Origin: Muribaculaceae bacterium Zag1
GTDB lineage: Bacteria; Bacteroidota; Bacteroidia; Bacteroidales; Muribaculaceae
Length of the DNA stretch: 64,000 nucleotides
NCBI GenBank assembly: GCA_002633115.1
Contig: NWBJ01000120.1
Location: 1-64,000, forward strand
Reading direction: 5' to 3'
Within the stretch, counting starts at the first letter, position 1, and each line of letters opens with the position of its first letter. Both the position numbers and the translations under genes were made by a program. The notes under the pieces are model-generated. The model was not told where the DNA came from and searched no databases. It worked only from the letters and a program-made list of their open reading frames with translations. Shown piece by piece: positions 1,860 to 30,163 of the stretch.

Positions 1860-2360
1860 TTATTTGACTCGCTTCCCTCTAGCAGCATCCTCGAATAATC
1901 TCTCTTTTTTCCTTTTAGCTTCTTTGGCATCAGTCTTCGCGAAACGAGGGACATGCACATATAGACTGTCTTCGCGTCGGCTTGCGTCTACGTAGGGATA
2001 GATTCCGATGCCACGCTTTGGTGGCATCGAGTCACGAAGAGTTTCATCATATTGTTCTACCCATTCGGGTATTATTTGTGTATCTTGGATTCGTGAAGCA
2101 CACAATACACGATTTTCACGATCATAGATATTCTGAGCCCACAGGCTCATACGAGTTAGAGTAGCATAAGCGCCATTTGGACCCTCCCAGTCAATGTCTT
2201 CGGGAGAGATTTCATCCATGCAACCAAACAGCTCAAGATATACATTCAGACCAGGCACTTTAGTTATTGGACGGGATTCATCCAACTCTTCATCCTAGGT
2301 ACGGAGTAATGAAGAATCATAGTCCTTAGCGCGACTTTCAATGAGTTCTTTTACTGTCAT
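1860..2360 (-). pseudogene. Hypothetical protein gene interrupted by an in-frame TAG
   Basis: From an ATG at 2360 the frame reads MTVKELIESRAKDYDSSLLR T, then TAG at 2297-2295, then continues open in the same frame (DEELDESRPITKVPGLNVYL...) to a stop at 1860. The uninterrupted downstream part is 141 codons from a TTG at 2285. MTVKELIESRAKDYD looks like a natural N-terminus, so the simplest reading is one gene of about 166 codons with an amber stop at codon 22. Alternatives are a start at an internal codon or a sequencing error. The product has a Lys/Arg-rich C-terminus and no family I recognise. It lies between the toxin-antitoxin module and the zinc-ribbon gene. Confidence 0.55.
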
Positions 2361-2381
2361 CGGATGAGGGTTGGCATACTA

Positions 2382-2660
2382 TCAATCTACCATTATATAA
2401 TGGCCAGGAATTTCCTTCATGGTACCATTACACTTGGGGCATTTGCCATCAATTGGATTCCAAGTGGAGGTTACTTCTTCTCCACAATTAGGACATCTGA
2501 CCCAAAACCTTCTTTCAGCTATAAGCTGAGATACTATTTCTTTACAATGGTCGCACTTGAAATGGACCAATAATCCTGCCATGATGCCAGTGAAGCCAGT
2601 AGGATTGCATGCTATGGTATAGCCACAGTCTTTGCACTTAAATTTACTAAACTTTCCCAT
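2382..2660 (-). CDS. Small zinc-ribbon protein
   Basis: A 92-residue protein with four CxxC pairs: CKDC near the N-terminus, CDHC in the middle, then CPNC and CPKC toward the C-terminus. These would form two treble-clef or rubredoxin-like zinc sites. It starts MGKFSKFKCKDCGY and has no signal peptide, so it is probably cytoplasmic. It sits on the same strand as and downstream of hsdS, in the accessory region. No specific function can be assigned; such proteins often bind nucleic acid or act as adaptors. Confidence 0.7.
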   Translation of the reverse strand: MGKFSKFKCKDCGYTIACNPTGFTGIMAGLLVHFKCDHCKEIVSQLIAERRFWVRCPNCGEEVTSTWNPIDGKCPKCNGTMKEIPGHYIMVD

Positions 2661-2768
2661 TATTATTTTTTATTATCCATAATATTTGAAACTTTGCAAT
2701 GCTTCCCCAGGTTGCTCTCCCAGACATAAGTGTGGATGATGAATCCGGGCTTTTTATTATCCGTCCTT

Positions 2769-3953
2769 TCATATCAAGCGAATGCGGCCAGTGAGGAGCT
2801 GCTGCATCATGCCTTGCTTGATGAGTTGGTATCTGGATTTCTTTTGTTCCATGAAGAAAATTTCAGAATCCAAATCTGAGAGGATGGTTGCGATGGCTCG
2901 CTGCTCTGATAAGGACGGGAGTGAGATTTCTAATTCGCTTAAGTTACTTTGAGTAAGTACGGGTTGAGCATTACCTATGGCGTATTGACCCAGTTCCATA
3001 AAGGACAAGAGATAAGCAAGCCATGGAATATTTATAGGAATGGATGGGAAAAATATTAAAGCATGCTCAGTCGCTTGAAAGGGTCCAGCAGTTAAATGGA
3101 CGTTTCCACAAAGGGCGCCAACTCTACCTACGACAATTTTTACGCCATCATAATTATGGAAGGGAGTATAACCCCTCAACCCATTGCCTCCATAGCAAGG
3201 GAATAAAGATTCATTTTGATAAGAAGATATAAATTGGGGATTCGTGAAATCACCAGATTTAAAGTATCCAGCATTCTTTATCGTAAGATTTTCCCATGGG
3301 TCGGAGAAGCCGGGGAGGCGGGTGTGACCAGTGAGGAGCTGCTGCATGGCGCCTTGCTTGATGAGGCGCTTTTTGGCTATCAACTTATCCAATTCGGCAA
3401 TCAAGGCATCAACATCACTCAATGCCTCAGCAATTCTCTCCTGCTCATCAAAAGGAGGAAGAGGTATAATTATATTTTTAACTGATTCAGAGGCAATATG
3501 TACAACTGCATCCCCTTGTGCTGCTTCCGCTTTTTGTTTGTTGGTATTCGCCGTATTACATAGGTATCCCAAAAATTGAGAAGAACATTCTATCTTGGGA
3601 GTTAGAACAATGATGTCTCCTCCAACATATGCTTTTTCATTTCCCAGAAAGGCTACTGCCTTGGCTATATCTTCTTTGGTTTCTCCCGAACAGGTAAACA
3701 AAATCTGACCCATTGTTAAAGGTATGGATCTTGAAGCTACAGATTCTGATATAAAGGAGTGAAAGCTCTTAATATAATCATTATGGATTGTGTAAATTTC
3801 TCCATAGCGAATTGCAGGAATAGATCCTGTTTGTGCCTCTGCTCGTGATATACCTTTCCCTTTTGAAAATAGACCTAAATTTCCCAATTTATATACTTCC
3901 CAATCCTCAGGAATCGGTCCGATATCCGTATATTTGAATCTTGTTTCTTTCAT
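2769..3953 (-). CDS. hsdS: Type I restriction-modification specificity subunit HsdS
   Basis: A 394-residue protein with the two-fold layout of type I S subunits: target-recognition domain 1 (IGPIPEDWEVYKLGNLG...), a conserved helical region (ERIAEALSDVDALIAELDKL), target-recognition domain 2 (from about residue 215, LPGFSDPWENLTIKNAGYF), and a second conserved helical region (RAIATILSDLDSE). Each TRD reads one half of a bipartite DNA target, and the helices set the spacer and bind HsdM. The start overlaps the upstream DUF1016 gene by four bases (ATGA). The ends of the two helical regions share a 38-bp near-identical DNA repeat that could allow recombination between half-genes. Recognition sequence cannot be inferred. 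Confidence 0.93.
   Translation of the reverse strand: MKETRFKYTDIGPIPEDWEVYKLGNLGLFSKGKGISRAEAQTGSIPAIRYGEIYTIHNDYIKSFHSFISESVASRSIPLTMGQILFTCSGETKEDIAKAVAFLGNEKAYVGGDIIVLTPKIECSSQFLGYLCNTANTNKQKAEAAQGDAVVHIASESVKNIIIPLPPFDEQERIAEALSDVDALIAELDKLIAKKRLIKQGAMQQLLTGHTRLPGFSDPWENLTIKNAGYFKSGDFTNPQFISSYQNESLFPCYGGNGLRGYTPFHNYDGVKIVVGRVGALCGNVHLTAGPFQATEHALIFFPSIPINIPWLAYLLSFMELGQYAIGNAQPVLTQSNLSELEISLPSLSEQRAIATILSDLDSEIFFMEQKKSRYQLIKQGMMQQLLTGRIRLI
2788..2825. repeat. 38-bp intragenic hsdS repeat, copy 1
   Basis: This segment encodes the end of the second conserved helical region (LIKQGMMQQLLTG). It matches 3328-3365 at 35 of 38 bases. The copies lie 540 bp apart in the same orientation, bracketing TRD 2. 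Confidence 0.8.
3328..3365. repeat. 38-bp intragenic hsdS repeat, copy 2
   Basis: Encodes LIKQGAMQQLLTG at the end of the first conserved helical region. Recombination between this copy and 2788-2825, or with hsdS fragments elsewhere in the genome, would delete or swap TRD 2. No second hsdS fragment or invertase gene is visible in this window. Confidence 0.8.
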
Positions 3954-21421: not shown

Positions 21422-23767
21422 TTAATCGCGGAAATATATGCGTTTGACGCGGGGCGAGATTGAGGTGAGGATTTCGTAGGGGATGGTCGAGAGGGTGGCG
21501 GCGATGCACTCGACCGGCATCTGGTGGCCGAAGATTTCGACCTTGTCGCCAATGTGTGCATCGGCATCGGTGACATCAACCATACACTGGTCCATGCAGA
21601 TATTGCCTACGATTGGACATTCTTTGCCATTGATGACAACCTTGCCCTGTCCGCACGACAGATGGCGGTCCAGGCCGTCGGCGTATCCGATAGGGATGGT
21701 AGCGATTACTGACGGCTGGGTGACCTTGCCTCGCCGCCCATAACCGATGGTAGTGCCCGGGCCCCATTCCTTAATTGATATTATGGTTGTTGAGAGGGTA
21801 GCGACCACCTCGAGCGAATCATCGATTTGCGGCACTGGGCTCACGCCATACAGGCCAATGCCGAGGCGCACCATATCATAATGGTGCTCGGGATAACGCA
21901 TGATGCCGGCCGTGTTGAGTATATGGCGCATGGGCCTATAGGGCAGTGCTGCCATAATCTCGGTGCTCATCAAGCGGAATGCCTCGAGTTGGCTGTGTGT
22001 GTATTCGTCCTCGTCGAGGCAGTCGGCCGTGGCGAGGTGTGAGAAGATTGAACGCACCTTCACTTCGTCTTGCGCCTTGAGTGCTTCTATAAGTTCTGGT
22101 ATTTGTTGCTGAGTGAATCCAAGGCGGTGCATGCCGGTGTCGAGTTTGATATGCACCGGATAATCCTTGATGCCGAGGCGCCGGGCATTGTCGACAAGCA
22201 GGTCAAGTTCGCGTATCGAGAAAACAGATGGCTCCAAGCGATTTTCAAACAGCGCCTTGTAATTGGTGCCGATGGGATTCATCACGATAATCGGCATTGT
22301 GATGCCAGCGCGGCGCAACTCAGCGCCCTCGTCAACCACGGCCACAGCGAGATAGGCTGCACCTTGGCTTTGCAAGGTCTTGGCGAGTTCGACCGCGCCC
22401 ACGCCGTATCCAGCAGCCTTGACCATGGCCACCAACCCAGTGCCGGGTTTTACCTTTGAGCGGAAATAGTTGAAATTGCGAGTGATAGCCCCCAGATCGA
22501 CTTCCATTACCGTCTCATGGCGCGGGGCTTCGAGCAGCGTCTTTATTTCCTCGAATCCCTCAGTGCCATCTCCCTTGACCAGGATTGTCTCTTCTTGGAA
22601 ATCTGAGATGGTGTAGTTGGCCAGGAAGTCGGCGACCGTGCCGACCCATTGCGAATTGGGATAATCATACTCAGTCGGGAATCCGATGCCAATCAGTCGC
22701 TTTACGCCTTTGGCCTCGAGCACTCGTCGCAGTTCGTGCCAATCGGCGCTGCCAAAAGCGTGGCCCTCGCAGAGAGGGCAACCCAGAATCAGAGTGACGG
22801 GACGCTGTGCCGGAGCATGACGCTCGGTGAAATTGAGAGCATCGCCTACCGAACGCAGGTCGTTGGTAAATCCATCGTAAACGATCAAGCAATCCTTGAG
22901 CGTCTCGCACACATCGATGCGTGGCGAGATTTTTTCGCTGAGGCTGGTAGCCATTTCTTCGGGGATGACGTAGCCGAGCACATATTGAGCCGCGGCCAGT
23001 GCCATCTGCCGATTGTCGCCCTCGACAGTATGGATGCGAGCATCAGGCGACTGTGCGCGCACCGCGCTCTCTATGATAGGCTGGTCGACAGGAATGAATA
23101 TGTCGGTGCAATCCTTAAATAGTATGGCTTTTTCTTGGGCTTTTTGTTGCAATGACTCAAAGCCCTCGGCATGCTCATCGGTGAGCGAGGTGAAGATGCC
23201 TATGGTGGGTTGGATCATGGCTTGCAACTTTTGCATTTCTCCGGGTTGGGAGATGCCAGCCTCTATGATGGCGAGGGTAGTCTCGGGCGAGAGGCCCCAA
23301 ATCGACATCGGCACTCCTATCTGAGAATTGTAGCTGCGGGGCGAACGGGCCGTAAGGCGGTCGGCGCGCACTATGCGGTACAGCAATTCCTTGACCACCG
23401 TCTTGCCTCGGCTGCCGGTGATGCCGACTACTGGCAGGTCAGGGAACATCTCGCGCACCTTGGTGGCAATCTGTTGCAATGCCGCAAGCACATCAGCGAC
23501 GACCCAGAATTGGCAGTCCTCGGGCGCGTCGTCGGGTTTGCGCTCGACCACAAAATGCTTCACGCCGCGCTCGATGAGCTGTGAGATGAAGCGGTGTCCA
23601 TCGTTGCCCGAAGTGCGCAGCGCGAAGAAAAGGCTTTCTGCCGGGAATGTCAAGTCGCGGCTATCTGTAAGGAGGGTAGATATCAGTGTCTCGTCAGATG
23701 ACTGGATTCCAATCATCTTGGCTATGGCGTAAGCAGGCAGTATCATTTCATCTGTATTAAGTGTCAA
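21422..23767 (-). CDS. Bifunctional MurF (UDP-MurNAc-tripeptide:D-Ala-D-Ala ligase) / alanine racemase
   Basis: A 781-residue fusion. The N-terminal MurF half has VVGITGSRGKTVVKELLYR (ATP loop), SPRSYNSQIGVP and IIEAGISQPGEM. From about residue 410 the alanine racemase half has LVAMVKAAGYGVGAVELAKT (PLP lysine), LDTGMHRLGF, VRLGIGLYGV and the catalytic-Tyr region TIGYGRRGKV. One protein thus makes D-Ala and joins the dipeptide to the peptidoglycan precursor. The fusion is typical of Bacteroidetes. In the MurF half some substrate residues may be divergent, so the activity of that half is inferred. MILPAYAIAKMIG at 23746 is an alternative start. Confidence 0.93.
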   Translation of the reverse strand: MTLNTDEMILPAYAIAKMIGIQSSDETLISTLLTDSRDLTFPAESLFFALRTSGNDGHRFISQLIERGVKHFVVERKPDDAPEDCQFWVVADVLAALQQIATKVREMFPDLPVVGITGSRGKTVVKELLYRIVRADRLTARSPRSYNSQIGVPMSIWGLSPETTLAIIEAGISQPGEMQKLQAMIQPTIGIFTSLTDEHAEGFESLQQKAQEKAILFKDCTDIFIPVDQPIIESAVRAQSPDARIHTVEGDNRQMALAAAQYVLGYVIPEEMATSLSEKISPRIDVCETLKDCLIVYDGFTNDLRSVGDALNFTERHAPAQRPVTLILGCPLCEGHAFGSADWHELRRVLEAKGVKRLIGIGFPTEYDYPNSQWVGTVADFLANYTISDFQEETILVKGDGTEGFEEIKTLLEAPRHETVMEVDLGAITRNFNYFRSKVKPGTGLVAMVKAAGYGVGAVELAKTLQSQGAAYLAVAVVDEGAELRRAGITMPIIVMNPIGTNYKALFENRLEPSVFSIRELDLLVDNARRLGIKDYPVHIKLDTGMHRLGFTQQQIPELIEALKAQDEVKVRSIFSHLATADCLDEDEYTHSQLEAFRLMSTEIMAALPYRPMRHILNTAGIMRYPEHHYDMVRLGIGLYGVSPVPQIDDSLEVVATLSTTIISIKEWGPGTTIGYGRRGKVTQPSVIATIPIGYADGLDRHLSCGQGKVVINGKECPIVGNICMDQCMVDVTDADAHIGDKVEIFGHQMPVECIAATLSTIPYEILTSISPRVKRIYFRD

Positions 23768-23826
23768 AACGTGTATCTAACAATAACACATTACAGATAG
23801 AATAAGTTTATTAGATACCTTCGTCT

Positions 23827-23945
23827 CTTAAGAGCCGTGCTACGCACTCATAGATACAGGGAATCGCAGTCATTAACCCCGCATTTCGTGCTACCGCACT
23901 CCATGTGGGGTTAACAGACAAGTATCGTGTTACGCACTGATAAAT
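23827..23945. repeat. Nested palindromic element with GTGCTACGCAC-type motif (copy B)
   Basis: It opens AGAGCCGTGCTACGCACTC like the copy at 11785. Arms TTAACCCCGCAT (23872-23883) and ATGTGGGGTTAA (23902-23913) pair at 11 of 12 positions around CGTGCTACCGCACTCC. It ends TAACAGACAAGTATCGTG, close to TAACAGACAAGGGTCGTG in copy A. Both copies lie between convergent or tandem housekeeping genes. Confidence 0.75.
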
Positions 23946-23961
23946 GTAGAGTTTCAGAAGG

Positions 23962-26430
23962 TTATGGCTGGAGACCTCGCGAGGCGAGAAAGGTGGCGAT
24001 GTCGGCCATGGCTGCGGCCTCGCGATCGCTGAGGCGCACTCTCGACTTCTGCGCTCCTCGATACCATAAGTAGAGCGATGGGCGCGAGGTCTGTGTTGGC
24101 TTTTCACCATATTTCTCAACAAATTCCTTGTAATGTGTGCAACGCAGCAAGAATATGTATTCGCGCGAGGTGATCAGATATCGCTGACGCTTGGCCAGCT
24201 CGCGGTCATATTGCTCGCGCTCGTGGGGCTGGAGTGAGATGTGCGAGTTTTGCACATTGTTGTACCAGCGGTACAGTGCCACCTCGTCATTATCCCCAGC
24301 CGAACTCGGCAAATGCTTGCGCGAGTCGAGATAGCGGAGCAATTCCTTGAATCTCTCCTTGAAATTTTTCTTGGCGTGGGGATTGCCAGTGCGCATCGAG
24401 AATTCCTCAGGATATTCCTTGTCAGCCAAACCGATCAGGCCGCCCTCGAATTTCTGGTACGACCGCTTGGTGTCAGAGCCAATCGTGGCGTGCACGCTGT
24501 TGGGGTTTGTCGGGCGTCCGATTTCGGCCAGCCGCTTTGTTATTTCCTCTGACGATAGCGGCACTGGACTCTCCTCGAGTATCTGCGCTATCAATTCGCG
24601 TATGGTCAGCGTATTGTAATCCCAATGCGACAGGCTGTAGGTAGCAGTCTTGCCAATGGGCTTGATGCGCTCAGATGAGAATAGGTGCAACTTGAGGCTG
24701 GTGCGCGGCTTATGCGAATAGTCGGGGTTGCGGCGGTAGAACTCCTTGAACAAATCCTCGAGGCCCATAGGTTGGCCTTTTTCTTCCAGGATTTGGTACA
24801 GCTCATGCTCAAAGTCGATGGCATTGCTCGGCAGTGTCACCATGTGCTCCTTGTCTGACTTCAGGCCGTAGAGCTGGCGCGACATGTGGCTGAGCACGCC
24901 CAAGCTGTCGCGATACAATTCGTGGGTCGGCGCCATCTGCTCCTGGATTACATCCTCGAGGCAAATGCGGCGAGTCTGGGCCGAGCGCGAGCGGTGGTGC
25001 TTGTCGATTGATGCCAGGGCGTCGGTCCAGTTGATGGCCTTGCCCAGTTGGGCTGGCACGGCGAAATAGTGGTCATGAAATCTCACAATCTCTATGCCTT
25101 GTCTCAGGCCCAATATTCCCGATATGGCATTGAGGTTGATTTTGAGGCCGTGAGGGGTGAATTCCTCTTTGGCTATGGCATTGACAATGGCGTTGATATG
25201 CACCACTTGGCCGCTCAGTTCCTTGTAGGTCTTTGAGGTTATCTTGTCGATAGTGCCTCGCAGGTCGGCCGGGGTGATGAAGTCGCGAAGTATCTGGCGA
25301 ATGCGCTCTGATGTCACCCGCGTGGTGTCGGCTATCTGCCTGAGATTCTTGCGCTCGACGGTGATGCCCTGGTAGGCGTCGTACATCGATGCTTGCCTAT
25401 CCTCGGTGTTGAGGAAATAGAAATAAGCGATCAAGAAATAGGGATAATGATTCAGTTTGAGGCGGTCGAGCAGCGCCATCTGCAGTTGGCCCGGTGTAAG
25501 GAAAGGGAAGATTGTGCGAGCCGACATGGCTTCGGCTTCCTCTTTGTTGGCCTCGGCCAGCTCGAGCAGATACTGGCGGAAGTTGCGGAAATTCTTTTGT
25601 ATCTCTTCAGATGTGCGACGTCCGCACTGCGAGATATTGCAAGCCTCGACCGAGAGGCGTTGGCAAAATTCGAGCACGTTGGCGTAATTGATTTCTTCGC
25701 GGCCCAGCACATTGATGGCTCGCCGACTCATTTGTCCCACGATTTCTGAGAACCTTTTCTCAATCACCGGGGTGAGGTTGGCCGGAATGTAAGTGTATAA
25801 CATCGCGTTGAGGCGAGAGTCAAATTGGCGCGTCACTTCGCGCAGGGTGGCGTTGGCGCGTTCCAAATAAGCCTTCTCCTCCACGCCGCCCTTTGTCAGC
25901 AACGACACGGCGCTCAATATCTCTTTGCCTAATTGCCATACCCCCTCCATCGTAGCGTACGACACAGTTTTGTCAAATGTGAATAGCTGCGAGGGGTGGC
26001 CGAGCACAGTGTTGAAAAACGCCGACGGGGTAGGGTAAATCTTCAAGAAGACCGCCCTTACCTCTGGCGCTGCGCTATCGGCATGCATTTGGAAAGCTTC
26101 GGTCGTCTGAGGCTGGAACGACTTGGGCACACTGTAGATGTATGGGTACGCCTCTTGGTTCTTTGCCTTTTCGCTTTTTTCTTTTCGTGATGTGAGGGAT
26201 TTGTTGAGCTTTGCGACGCGGTTGGCTCGATAATCCTTGATGACGCGTTCTAATTCGAGCGTAGTTTTTTTACCGCAATTCTTAATTGATGTGATGTCGT
26301 TGGCCTCAACATAGCGGATGAGGCTTACAATGTCGGTGATGCCAATGGCGCGGCAGCAATTTTTTGCGCGAGCCGACAGTGAATCAATCGTAGCGTCAAA
26401 TATCTGTTCTGTACTGGCCGTTGTATCCAT
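23962..26430 (-). CDS. Large protein with alpha-CTD-like, sigma-region-4-like and winged-helix-like modules
   Basis: An 822-residue cytoplasmic protein with no signal peptide or membrane segment. Residues 17-66 (LSARAKNCCRAIGITDIVSL, then SIKNCGKKTTLELERVI) match the helix-hairpin-helix fold of the RNA polymerase alpha C-terminal domain; a second copy is at 234-285 (MSRRAINVLGREEI..., ISQCGRRTSEEIQKN). Residues 362-384 (NLRQIADTTRVTSERIRQIL) look like sigma region 4.2. Segments 540-602 and 608-672 look like winged helices (HARE-HTH-like). The C-terminus has two related blocks with LYRWYNNVQNS and LYLWYRGAQKS, like helicase-associated DNA-binding repeats. No catalytic motif is visible. It probably binds DNA and perhaps RNA polymerase; this is inference. 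It is transcribed alone, divergent from ileS. Confidence 0.7.
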   Translation of the reverse strand: MDTTASTEQIFDATIDSLSARAKNCCRAIGITDIVSLIRYVEANDITSIKNCGKKTTLELERVIKDYRANRVAKLNKSLTSRKEKSEKAKNQEAYPYIYSVPKSFQPQTTEAFQMHADSAAPEVRAVFLKIYPTPSAFFNTVLGHPSQLFTFDKTVSYATMEGVWQLGKEILSAVSLLTKGGVEEKAYLERANATLREVTRQFDSRLNAMLYTYIPANLTPVIEKRFSEIVGQMSRRAINVLGREEINYANVLEFCQRLSVEACNISQCGRRTSEEIQKNFRNFRQYLLELAEANKEEAEAMSARTIFPFLTPGQLQMALLDRLKLNHYPYFLIAYFYFLNTEDRQASMYDAYQGITVERKNLRQIADTTRVTSERIRQILRDFITPADLRGTIDKITSKTYKELSGQVVHINAIVNAIAKEEFTPHGLKINLNAISGILGLRQGIEIVRFHDHYFAVPAQLGKAINWTDALASIDKHHRSRSAQTRRICLEDVIQEQMAPTHELYRDSLGVLSHMSRQLYGLKSDKEHMVTLPSNAIDFEHELYQILEEKGQPMGLEDLFKEFYRRNPDYSHKPRTSLKLHLFSSERIKPIGKTATYSLSHWDYNTLTIRELIAQILEESPVPLSSEEITKRLAEIGRPTNPNSVHATIGSDTKRSYQKFEGGLIGLADKEYPEEFSMRTGNPHAKKNFKERFKELLRYLDSRKHLPSSAGDNDEVALYRWYNNVQNSHISLQPHEREQYDRELAKRQRYLITSREYIFLLRCTHYKEFVEKYGEKPTQTSRPSLYLWYRGAQKSRVRLSDREAAAMADIATFLASRGLQP

Positions 26431-26484: not shown

Positions 26485-26492
26485 CAAAGATA
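26485..26492 (-). promoter_or_regulatory. Possible -7 element for the 822-residue protein gene
   Basis: The minus strand reads TATCTTTG, matching TAnnTTTG, 55 bases before the ATG at 26430. No exact -33 TTTG is present at the usual distance. The remaining 180 bases up to the ileS promoter are AT-rich without other recognisable features. Confidence 0.4.
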
Positions 26493-26672
26493 CAAATTAT
26501 ATTGAATAAAAGTAAAGATTTTGCCATTAATTTGTCACTTATATTAGATTTTTAGCATAATTTAAGTAGATGTTTACTAAAAGTTATAAATTCACGAGCC
26601 GATGATTTTTAGATGCTTACCAAAAATTACTCCTCCTCGAGGCGAGAAAAATGCTCCGGAGATTAAGATTAG

Positions 26673-26743: not shown

Positions 26744-29700
26744 ATGAAGAAATTCCATGAATACTCAGGCCTCAACCTTTCTGATGTGAATAGAGAAGTG
26801 CTGAAGCAATGGAATGAAAGCTCGCTCTTTGAGCAGAGCCTCAAGGAGAGGGAGGGTTGCCCCTCGTTTGTGTTCTACGAAGGACCCCCTTCGGCCAACG
26901 GCATGCCCGGCATACACCATGTGCTGGCTCGCACCATCAAGGACATCTTCTGTCGCTACAAGACCATGAAAGGATTCCACGTAAAGCGCAAAGCTGGCTG
27001 GGACACCCATGGTCTGCCCGTCGAACTCGGCGTGGAGAAAGCCCTCGGAATCACTAAGGAAGACATCGGCAAGAAGATTTCGGTAGACGAGTACAACGCT
27101 GCTTGCCGCCGCGAGGTCATGAAATACACCCGCGAATGGGAGAACCTGACCAACTCGATGGGCTACTGGGTCGACATGTCAGACCCCTACATCACTTATG
27201 ACAATCGCTACATCGAGAGCGTGTGGTGGCTGCTGGCCCAGATGCACAAAAAGGGTTACCTCTACAAAGGATATACCATACAGCCGTATTCTCCGGCTGC
27301 CGGCACCGGCTTGAGTTCGCACGAGCTCAATCAGCCTGGCTGCTATCGCGATGTCAAGGACACCACTTGCATCGCCCAGTTTGCCATGAAAGATCCCAAG
27401 CCGTCGATGACCGGCTGGGGCAAGCCTTATTTCTTGGCTTGGACCACTACTCCCTGGACCTTGCCCTCGAATACCGCTCTGGCAGTAGGTCCCTCTATTA
27501 AATATAATGTGGTGCGCACCTATAATCCATATTCTTGCAATCCCATCACCGTGATCATCGCCGACGCGCTGATGGATAGCGTGCTCAATCCCAAGGCTAA
27601 GGATATCGCCCTGGCCGACTACAAGCCCGGCGACAAGCTGGTGCCCTACGAGGTGGTCGACAGCCTGATGGGCATCGACCTGGTGGGCATGCGCTACGAG
27701 CAACTGATGCCTTGGGTCAATCCCGGCGAGGGCGCTTTCCGCGTGATTGCTGGCGATTTCGTAAGCACCGAGGATGGCACCGGCATCGTGCATATCGCCG
27801 GCACATTCGGCGCTGACGACTTCAGGGTGTCAAAGCAGAATGGCGTGCCACCGTTGCACATGACCGACCTCAACGGCAATATCCGACCGATGGTCGACCA
27901 GAAGGGACGCTTCTACGCTATCGAAGACCTCGACCCGGCCTTTGTTGAGCAAATGGTCAATGTCGAGGAGTACAAGCCTTGGGCTGGCAAATATGTCAAG
28001 AATGCTTACAATCCTGAAGCCACCGAGGACACTGAAACTCTCGATGTCGAGCTGTGCATGTATCTCAAGCAGAGAGACATGGTATTCAAGATCGAGAAGC
28101 ATGTGCACAGCTATCCGCATTGCTGGCGCACCGACAAGCCCGTGCTTTACTACCCGCTCGACAGCTGGTTTATCAAGACCCCCGATGCTCGCGAGCGCCT
28201 GATGGAACTCAACACCACTATCAATTGGAAACCGGCCTCGACCGGTACTGGCCGCTTTGGCAAGTGGCTTGAGAATCTGCAGGACTGGAACCTGTCGCGC
28301 AGCCGCTATTGGGGCACCCCGCTGCCCATCTGGCGCACTGAGGACGGCCAAGAAGAAATCTGCATCGACTCGGTCGAGACATTATATAAGGAGATTGACA
28401 AGGCCGTCAAGGCTGGAGTGATGGAAAAGAATCCTCTGGCCGAGGCTGGATTCGTGCCCGGCGTCTACACCAAGGAGAATTACGAGAAGATTGACCTGCA
28501 TCGTCCTTATGTCGACGACATCGTGCTGGTTTCGCCTTCAGGCAAGCCTATGCGCCGCGAACTCGACCTGATCGACGTGTGGTTCGACTCTGGTTCGATG
28601 CCTTACGCTCAGATACACTATCCGTTTGAGAACAAAGAAGCATTTGACCGTGGCGACCTCTATCCGGCAGACTTCATCGCCGAGGGCGTAGACCAAACTC
28701 GCGGTTGGTTCTTCACCCTCCATGCAATCGCTGGCATGGTGTTCGACTCTGTGTCATACAAGGCTGTAGTATCCAACGGCTTGGTGCTCGACAAATTCGG
28801 CAACAAGATGTCAAAGCGTCTTGGCAACGCCGTCAATCCTTTTGAGGCTATTGAGAAATACGGCTCCGACCCTCTTCGCTGGTACATGATTGCCAACTCC
28901 TCGCCATGGGACAACCTGAAATTTGACGAGGCCGGTGTGCAAGAGGTTGCTCGCAAACTCTTTGCTACGCTTTACAACACCTACTCATTCTTTGCCCTCT
29001 ATGCCAATGTCGACGGCTTTACTGGCAAGGAGCCTCAAGTGCCAGTGAGCGAGCGCCCCGAGATTGACCGTTGGATCCTCTCGCTGCTCAATTCGCTCAT
29101 TGCCGAGGTCGATGCCGACTTGGCCGACTATGAGCCCACCAAGGCCGCTCGCGCCATCAACGAGTTTGTCAACGACAACCTCTCGAACTGGTACGTGCGC
29201 CTCAATCGCAAGCGCTTCTGGGGCGGCGAGATGGACAAGGACAAACTCTCGGCTTACCAGACTCTCTACACTTGCCTTGAGACTTTGGCTCTGCTTATCG
29301 CTCCAATTTCGCCCTTCTATGCCGACCAGCTGTATCAAGACCTCGAGGCTCCAAGGGTGGAAGAGACCAAGTCGGTGCACCTGGCTCACTTCCCCGTGGC
29401 TGATCAGGCTCTAATCGACAAGGCTCTCGAGCAGCGCATGGCTCTGGCACAGACCATCACTTCGCTCGTGCTGTCGCTGCGCCGCAAGGCCAACCTCAAG
29501 GTGCGCCAGCCGCTGTCAGAGCTCATGGTGCCAGCTATCGACGATGAGCAGCACCGCATGATCGAGGCAATGAAGCAGCTGATCCTCACCGAGGTGAATG
29601 TCAAGGAGATGAAGATAGTGGGCAGCGACGAGGGCGTGCTTGTCAAAAAAGTCAAGCCTGACTTCAAGAAGCTCGGCCCGAAGCACGGCAAGCAGATGAA

Positions 29701-30163
29701 GGCTGTGGCTGCAGCCATCGCCGCTCTGACCCAGCAGCAAATCGCACAGCTCGAGCGCGAGGGCAGCTTGGCAATAGCCTTGACCCAAGGCGAGGCTGTA
29801 ATCGATGCCGCTGATGTCGAGATTATCTCAGAGGACATCCCCGGTTGGCTCGTGGCCAACGAGGGCAATGTGACCGTAGCTTTGGATATTACCCTCACGC
29901 CTGAACTCAAGAAGGAGGGCCTGGCACGCGACATCGTGAACCGTGTGCAAAACCTGCGCAAGAGCCGCGATTACCAGATCACCGACCGCATCAACCTGGT
30001 GTTTGGCCACAATCCCGAGACCGACGAGGCCATCGCCGACTTCAGTGAATACATCGCTTCGCAAGTGCTCGCCACATCGGTGGTTGTCACTGACCTGGCC
30101 GAGCCGCAAGAAGTGCTCGATATCGACGGTGTGAAACTCCCCGTGAGCATCACACTCGCCTGA
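26744..30163 (+). CDS. ileS: Isoleucyl-tRNA synthetase
   Basis: A 1139-residue class I synthetase. The ATP-binding HIGH motif appears as GIHH (56-59, in SANGMPGIHHVL) and KMSKS as KMSKR (688-692, in FGNKMSKRLGN). Between them lies the CP1 editing domain (WTTTPWTLPSNTALAVGP), which hydrolyses Val-tRNA(Ile). The C-terminal anticodon-binding region runs from about 800 to the end. The large size and absence of a C-terminal zinc-knuckle Cys set resemble the eukaryote-like IleRS class often found in Bacteroidetes (inferred); that class tends to tolerate mupirocin. It begins a run of five plus-strand genes. Confidence 0.97.
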   Translation: MKKFHEYSGLNLSDVNREVLKQWNESSLFEQSLKEREGCPSFVFYEGPPSANGMPGIHHVLARTIKDIFCRYKTMKGFHVKRKAGWDTHGLPVELGVEKALGITKEDIGKKISVDEYNAACRREVMKYTREWENLTNSMGYWVDMSDPYITYDNRYIESVWWLLAQMHKKGYLYKGYTIQPYSPAAGTGLSSHELNQPGCYRDVKDTTCIAQFAMKDPKPSMTGWGKPYFLAWTTTPWTLPSNTALAVGPSIKYNVVRTYNPYSCNPITVIIADALMDSVLNPKAKDIALADYKPGDKLVPYEVVDSLMGIDLVGMRYEQLMPWVNPGEGAFRVIAGDFVSTEDGTGIVHIAGTFGADDFRVSKQNGVPPLHMTDLNGNIRPMVDQKGRFYAIEDLDPAFVEQMVNVEEYKPWAGKYVKNAYNPEATEDTETLDVELCMYLKQRDMVFKIEKHVHSYPHCWRTDKPVLYYPLDSWFIKTPDARERLMELNTTINWKPASTGTGRFGKWLENLQDWNLSRSRYWGTPLPIWRTEDGQEEICIDSVETLYKEIDKAVKAGVMEKNPLAEAGFVPGVYTKENYEKIDLHRPYVDDIVLVSPSGKPMRRELDLIDVWFDSGSMPYAQIHYPFENKEAFDRGDLYPADFIAEGVDQTRGWFFTLHAIAGMVFDSVSYKAVVSNGLVLDKFGNKMSKRLGNAVNPFEAIEKYGSDPLRWYMIANSSPWDNLKFDEAGVQEVARKLFATLYNTYSFFALYANVDGFTGKEPQVPVSERPEIDRWILSLLNSLIAEVDADLADYEPTKAARAINEFVNDNLSNWYVRLNRKRFWGGEMDKDKLSAYQTLYTCLETLALLIAPISPFYADQLYQDLEAPRVEETKSVHLAHFPVADQALIDKALEQRMALAQTITSLVLSLRRKANLKVRQPLSELMVPAIDDEQHRMIEAMKQLILTEVNVKEMKIVGSDEGVLVKKVKPDFKKLGPKHGKQMKAVAAAIAALTQQQIAQLEREGSLAIALTQGEAVIDAADVEIISEDIPGWLVANEGNVTVALDITLTPELKKEGLARDIVNRVQNLRKSRDYQITDRINLVFGHNPETDEAIADFSEYIASQVLATSVVVTDLAEPQEVLDIDGVKLPVSITLA

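Follow-up and report, generated by a model that had tools for sequence, protein, structure and literature searches.

What is the role of a protein in which the promoter-reading modules of RNA polymerase (RNAP) are assembled without the rest of the polymerase, and whose relatives are encoded in some cases close to housekeeping genes and in others within defence-type gene runs? The question is raised by P0001, a long ORF in a 64,000-nucleotide stretch of DNA from Muribaculaceae bacterium Zag1 (hereafter the window, meaning the whole stretch that was analysed). The original prediction, made from these letters alone, had read it as an 822-residue mosaic of pieces mimicking RNAP parts, encoded next to ileS, and had suggested a multi-site DNA-binding transcription or nucleoid factor. 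Genomes are denoted below by G-numbers, with G000 being the one that carries P0001.

A conserved gene divergent from ileS

The gene and the promoter-like element upstream of it are placed as follows:

23962-26430, minus strand: P0001, an 822-aa ORF with an ATG start (ORF list; dN/dS 0.045 against the G006 orthologue)
26485-26516, minus strand: promoter-like TTTA-N20-TATCTTTG, 54 bases 5' of the P0001 ATG (pattern match)

The P0001 gene is real, conserved and under purifying selection. Its G006 orthologue is 96% identical with a dN/dS of 0.045, the values for other genes in the same comparison being 0.005 (lepA), 0.038 (an alr/murF-like gene) and 0.024 (ileS). A chance or spurious ORF is ruled out by this ratio together with the domain matches given below. 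P0001 is present as a single copy in its own genome, and its GC content is 53.5%, against 54.8-55.6% in three neighbouring genes. As predicted, ileS (26744-30163, plus strand) is its neighbour, in divergent orientation, and the alr/murF-like gene (21422-23767) follows 194 bases downstream on the same strand as P0001; both gene names were assigned by eye. We fetched 30 ileS loci out of 40 genomes of the genus with an ileS match: apart from G000 and G006, the remaining 28 showed neither any part of P0001 nor any of the alr/murF-like gene in the ileS flank, which extended to at most 1.5 kb; in 18 of these 28 an rpsP-like gene, named by eye, lies upstream of ileS.

Bacteroidota promoters follow the consensus TTTG/TAnnTTTG. 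The element upstream of P0001 has 2 matches in the window against 0.36 expected, with at least two matches in 5 of 100 shuffles; these statistics are post hoc, as the pattern with TTTA was chosen after the site had already been seen. The interval between P0001 and the alr/murF-like gene (23768-23965) has a folding z of -2.12, with 5 of 200 shuffles as good, and contains a hairpin, GUUAACCCC...GGGGUUAA, with no T run after it.

Domain architecture of P0001

From the N-terminus to the C-terminus the following modules were identified:

26233-26382, minus strand: alpha-CTD 1, residues 17-66 (Pfam E 3.1e-8; hhalign 96.9%)
25561-25755, minus strand: alpha-CTD 2, residues about 226-290 (hhalign 93.7%, E 1.9e-7; internal repeat)
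25279-25413, minus strand: sigma region 4 (4.1 and 4.2), residues about 340-384 (hhalign 98.8%; family profile against PDB)
24613-24843, minus strand: winged-helix domain 1, HARE-like, residues about 530-606 (HARE-HTH 18.2 bits, below the cut-off of 25.9)
24391-24621, minus strand: winged-helix domain 2, residues about 604-680 (hhalign 96.8% to winged helix 1)
24175-24384, minus strand: HA repeat 1 (LYRWYNNVQNS), residues about 683-752 (Pfam HA 14.8 bits)
23965-24174, minus strand: HA repeat 2 (LYLWYRGAQKS), residues about 753-822 (alignment to repeat 1)

The RNAP-derived modules were recognized by Pfam searches and by profile-profile comparisons (hhalign) with 7 RpoA CTDs and 24 RpoD regions 4 drawn from related genomes. 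The Pfam model RNA_pol_A_CTD matches residues 17-64 above its cut-off (E 3.1e-8), and the surrounding segment 1-80 aligns with the RpoA CTDs at 96.9% (E 1.6e-10). The second alpha-CTD has no separate Pfam match in P0001; its segment 222-300 aligns with the RpoA CTDs at 93.7% (E 1.9e-7), none of 1000 shuffles reaches the score of the alignment between the two copies, and in the homologue from G252 the Pfam alpha-CTD model has its best stretch in the second copy (127-176). Region 4 scores below the Pfam cut-off in P0001 alone (15.5 vs 24.1), segment 320-400 aligns with RpoD region 4 at 98.8% (E 7.5e-17), and the top PDB matches of the family profile are primary sigma factors (E 1.5e-9). The remaining six segments of the protein score under 3% each against either set of references.

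The two winged helices form a related pair (96.8%, E 2.7e-10), with 1 of 1000 shuffles matching the score of their alignment. The first is weakly similar to HARE-HTH proteins (Aravind and Iyer 2012), below the cut-off, and the HARE-HTH model (PF05066) reaches its cut-off in none of the 21 members scanned, P0001 included; a HARE-like winged-helix fold is possible despite the sub-cut-off score. The C-terminal repeats align to each other with a score of 47, as high as which none of 1000 shuffles comes, and resemble the "helicase associated" (HA) domain PF03457, which in P0001 scores 14.8 bits against a cut-off of 28.4. This domain is above the cut-off in the homologues from G584 (41.6) and G299 (31.8); it passes in 2/10 members of one scan and 0/10 of another. 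Residues about 67-225 and 400-520 gave no module match. Scans of P0001 that included Pfam, NCBIfam and PADLOC gave no kinase, nuclease or ATPase domain above the cut-off, and an NCBIfam D-erythronate dehydrogenase model matches far below its cut-off.

The original prediction had thus described the protein well: its two alpha-CTD-like segments, its sigma-4.2-like helix-turn-helix (now joined by region 4.1 and closest to primary sigma factors), its two possible winged helices and its two C-terminal LYxWYxxxQxS repeats (now likened to the HA domain) were all recovered, and its statement that kinase, nuclease and ATPase motifs are lacking agrees with the family scans. The mimicry of RNAP parts that it proposed is right in the sense of homology. 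Structure prediction, which it had suggested as a check, gave an unusable full-length AF2 model (2 sequences, pLDDT 38, pTM 0.24).

Whereas P0001 shares homologous alpha-CTD and sigma region 4 modules with the RNAP alpha subunit and the primary sigma factor, and retains most of their DNA contacts, neither the N-terminal assembly domain of RNAP alpha nor sigma region 2 (core and -10 binding) has a Pfam match in it up to E 1. Judged by sequence, it is not a polymerase subunit, the polymerase-building parts being absent.

Conservation of the promoter-contact residues

We examined the equivalents of the DNA-contact residues over 40 aligned members of the family, using the E. coli numbering for alpha-CTD and sigma region 4. 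In alpha-CTD 1 of P0001, R265, N268, C269, G296, K298, S299 and E302 correspond to R21, N24, C25, G53, K55, T56 and E59. Across the family, with gap rows excluded, this copy has R265 in 30/36, N268 in 26/35, G296 in 31/36 and E302 in 30/36 members, with K or R at 298 in 31/36 and S or T at 299 in 30/36; C269 is found in only 3/35. In alpha-CTD 2 the equivalents of R265, N268, G296, K298, S299 and E302 are R237, N240, G270, R272, T273 and E276, and the family counts are 19/23 (R265), 14/22 (N268), 18/22 (G296), 19/23 (E302), 12/22 (K or R at 298) and 14/22 (S or T at 299). C269 is hence no general feature of the family, and conservation is less strict in the second copy. In sigma region 4, P0001 retains the equivalents of E585, R586, R588 and Q589 (E375, R376, R378 and Q379), which are kept in 39/40, 38/40, 38/40 and 38/40 members, respectively; the place of R584 is taken by Ser in P0001 and by Arg in 27/40 members. 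By these alignments, most of the promoter-DNA contact residues of alpha-CTD 1 and sigma region 4 are kept.

Within RNAP, alpha-CTDs bind the AT-rich minor groove and sigma region 4 binds the -35 element. Given the homology of these modules and the contacts kept in alpha-CTD 1 and sigma region 4, the activity most to be expected of P0001 is multi-site DNA binding, and from what the modules are known to bind in RNAP it should prefer promoter-like DNA. The same two modules also make protein contacts within RNAP, and region 4.1 is present in P0001 besides 4.2, both of which would suit a regulator whose sigma4 and alpha-CTD surfaces bind the polymerase or activators rather than DNA. The retention of the DNA-contact residues argues mildly against such an RNAP-directed protein, which we consider very improbable.

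Phyletic distribution of the family

We examined 44 members of the P0001 family, which is patchily distributed in Bacteroidota. Its spread was counted with a family profile of 28 rows (A2), most of them from the same sample of the order that was later counted. At E<=1e-70, 5/49 genomes of the genus have a member, the other matches being short and read as sigma factors. In Bacteroidales, the spread across which the original prediction had proposed to follow, a member is present in 31/295 genomes at E<=1e-40, a patchy pattern; the 266/295 genomes matched at 1e-8 reflect mostly sigma-factor matches of about 55 residues. The count is 9/395 for the class at 1e-20 (G000 included), and 6/395 for the phylum at 1e-18, including G000 and two genomes of the class set. 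Within one genus, the long members differ widely in sequence and occupy different loci.

A quick tree built from 40 members leaves 20 of 37 inner branches open and has 12 long end branches. It recovers a group of 14 short forms (support 100), one of 13 members that includes the 4 then-known members linked to Dnd genes (96) and one of 8 members with P0001 (97). P0001 and its G006 orthologue pair with the member from G328 (SH-aLRT 98), the nearest relative of P0001 outside the genus; the placement of G022 and G334 is unsure owing to long branches that meet each other. The tree omits two short forms (G215, G094), a fragment (G143) and the later additions G893, G928, G848 and a plasmid copy from Segatella.

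A viral or phage gene was also considered and rejected, since no relative was found either in viral_contigs, where five queries were run and only close relatives are detectable, or in a phage search. A single, weak relative was found on plasmids: Segatella copri plasmid NZ_CP085933.1 (L193 8158-10119) encodes a 653-aa protein, in the vicinity of which DEAD/DEAH box helicase, DprA and phosphoribosyltransferase genes are annotated.

Genomic neighbourhoods of the relatives

Several long relatives are encoded in runs with DNA-handling genes. At 5 loci in 5 genomes (G252, G299, G433, G584 and G928), a member is followed by a small ORF, a DndD-type ATPase and a DndE-HerA fusion; the DndD and DndE-HerA assignments are by Pfam and PADLOC in G584, by PADLOC in G252 and by eye in the other three. 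The small ORF, of about 60 residues, overlaps both the member and dndD in all five loci (L046, L049, L137, L138 and L195). The 167-180-base gap before dndD had been entertained as an RNA element, a candidate rejected because the gap contains this ORF. DndD in general is likewise rejected as the partner of the family: 13 of the 15 genomes of the class with DndD (E<=1e-40) have no member within 1.5 kb, and the two that do are those with the closest DndD, namely G433 (48%) and G584 (the source of the query itself). Just upstream of the Dnd-linked member in G928 (L195 7646-8323) lies a gene for a 225-aa protein that by eye resembles HKD/phospholipase-D-type nucleases.

In G394 (L141 9360-15288), the type I restriction protein HsdR, a YgjP-like peptidase and then a member abut on one strand. 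The run in G328 (L043 486-11103) comprises a 434-aa protein, a HerA-like ATPase, an Hsp90-like ATPase, a radical-SAM-like protein and the member, and is flanked by tyrosine recombinase genes (by eye). The 434-aa protein has no Pfam or PADLOC match; the Hsp90-like ATPase is above the cut-off and the radical-SAM-like protein below it. An insertion element at 2277-3563 splits the HerA-like gene, whose larger piece matches PADLOC mad8 (E 7e-7) and HerA (E 4e-4), with no Pfam match. This run is a candidate defence system. Its first two genes recur in G310 (59% and 66-67%), where they run to the end of a contig; the G310 member starts at another contig end, separate from that one, and no match to the Hsp90-like gene was found in that genome.

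Such partners are not seen beside most of the other long members, P0001 included, where no partner gene was recognized nearby by eye. Searches at E<=1e-5 with the Hsp90-like and HerA-like genes of G328 found nothing in G000, G006, G022, G013 or G334, DndD is unmatched at E<=1e-40 in G000, and neither DndD nor DndE was seen by eye among the ORFs beside P0001.

Because alpha-CTD and sigma region 4 are parts of RNAP targeted by phages, the defence-type neighbours of some relatives also bring to mind a decoy, in which these modules bait phage proteins that seize the host RNAP (e.g., anti-sigma4 factors and alpha-CTD modifiers) and binding triggers a response. A pure bait would not need the DNA-contact residues that are kept here; the winged-helix and HA modules also suggest DNA, and no effector domain was recognized in P0001 or adjacent to it. 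We regard a decoy as improbable.

The short forms, of about 490 aa, have an alpha-CTD, sigma region 4 and two winged helices (L047, L048 and L125-L136). At 10 of 14 loci, from several families, the short member is preceded by an rplI-like and an RNA-methyltransferase-like gene (names by eye); of the other four, two are without all or part of the upstream sequence and two differ. By eye, no defence gene is seen among up to five nearest ORFs of the 14 short forms in the tree. The short form is possibly a core gene of some Bacteroidales families; we located no described function for it.

This proximity to ribosomal-protein genes fits a cellular role, and the family might serve the cell alone, as a transcription or nucleoid factor that organizes or represses promoters of the chromosome, with the defence-type neighbourhoods being side branches that borrowed the protein. 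P0001 itself is in keeping with this in being solitary, conserved and close to its neighbours in GC content. On the other hand, a cellular factor accords poorly with the patchy presence in the genus and the order, with the strong divergence and different loci of the long members of one genus, and with the occurrence of the nearest relative outside the genus, that of G328, in a gene run among mobile-type genes. We consider this explanation possible, if doubtful.

Proposed function of P0001

The reading that we favour, at about even chances, is that P0001, from a partly defence-linked Bacteroidota family, recognizes DNA as a stand-alone protein and reads promoter-like DNA as an orphan regulator or sensor. 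DNA binding, its target and the recruitment of partners by the family are what we infer, along the following lines. The family would have arisen when two alpha-CTDs and a single region 4 of the primary-sigma type were joined to HA repeats and tandem winged helices. The alpha-CTDs would hold the AT-rich, UP-like minor groove, sigma region 4 would read a -35/-33-like motif, and the winged helices and HA repeats would make additional contacts, which together would settle the protein on promoter-like DNA. To go by their neighbours, some relatives, which begin or end a gene run that also encodes DNA-handling ATPases or a restriction subunit, may place these on target DNA. Since the partners searched for were not found in its genome, P0001 most likely works by itself, either occluding promoters as a regulator or silencer or serving as an orphan sensor.

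Of the original interpretation, the mosaic of RNAP modules stands, upheld by homology and kept contacts; the defence-type runs of some long relatives had gone unseen by it. Counting against the reading favoured here are the lack of recognized partners at most long members and of defence genes beside the short forms, the missing matches in G000 to DndD and to the Hsp90-like and HerA-like genes of G328 and, in the alignments, the weaker conservation of alpha-CTD 2, the presence of C269 in only 3/35 first copies and the Ser in the place of R584. A broader proposal, which we think unlikely, is that the whole family is an immune recognition class that reuses promoter readers to place HerA-, DndD- or HsdR-type machines on incoming promoters or to bait phage takeover factors, with P0001 being a chromosomally settled orphan. 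Were the promoter-reading part of our inference true, it would represent an unexpected route for DNA recognition by defence machines.

Comparison with known systems

The pairing of DndE-HerA with a DndD-like ATPase is already known, since a subset of Dnd systems is reported to have DndE fused to HerA beside such an ATPase (PMC10853773); in the parts of that source available to us an alpha-CTD/sigma4 protein is not mentioned. The likeness to PbeABCD and to the CxC-DndE and DndD-DndE systems lies in the DndD/PbeC-like ATPase and DndE-HerA beside the five relatives. Component A of PbeABCD is described as an HKD nuclease fused to a helicase (PMC10853773); in contrast, the first gene in the five loci is the module mosaic, and P0001 is without such neighbours. 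If PbeABCD is named in the order of its genes, the small ORF would correspond in position to PbeB and the member to PbeA.

Searching by titles and the beginnings of abstracts, we found no description of the module architecture of P0001, though papers or their supplements may still contain one. It is a variation on the multi-module proteins for DNA recognition that occur in defence systems, and its main interest is the reuse of promoter readers. The nearest known architecture among those found is the C-terminal half of PglW from type 2 BREX, described, in the portion of the source that we drew on, as an alpha-CTD-like domain with three winged-helix modules after it (PMC12839542). Both proteins thus combine an alpha-CTD with winged helices; the NERD nuclease, kinase and iSTAND domains that the same portion reports for PglW are not found in P0001, whereas sigma region 4 and the HA repeats are additions of P0001. 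This partial likeness is also seen in profile searches: the NCBIfam PglW model matches P0001 with E 8.4e-6 over the alpha-CTD (best stretch 17-111), far below its cut-off (23.8 vs 990 bits), and the PADLOC PglW model with E 1.2e-4 (best stretch 17-93).
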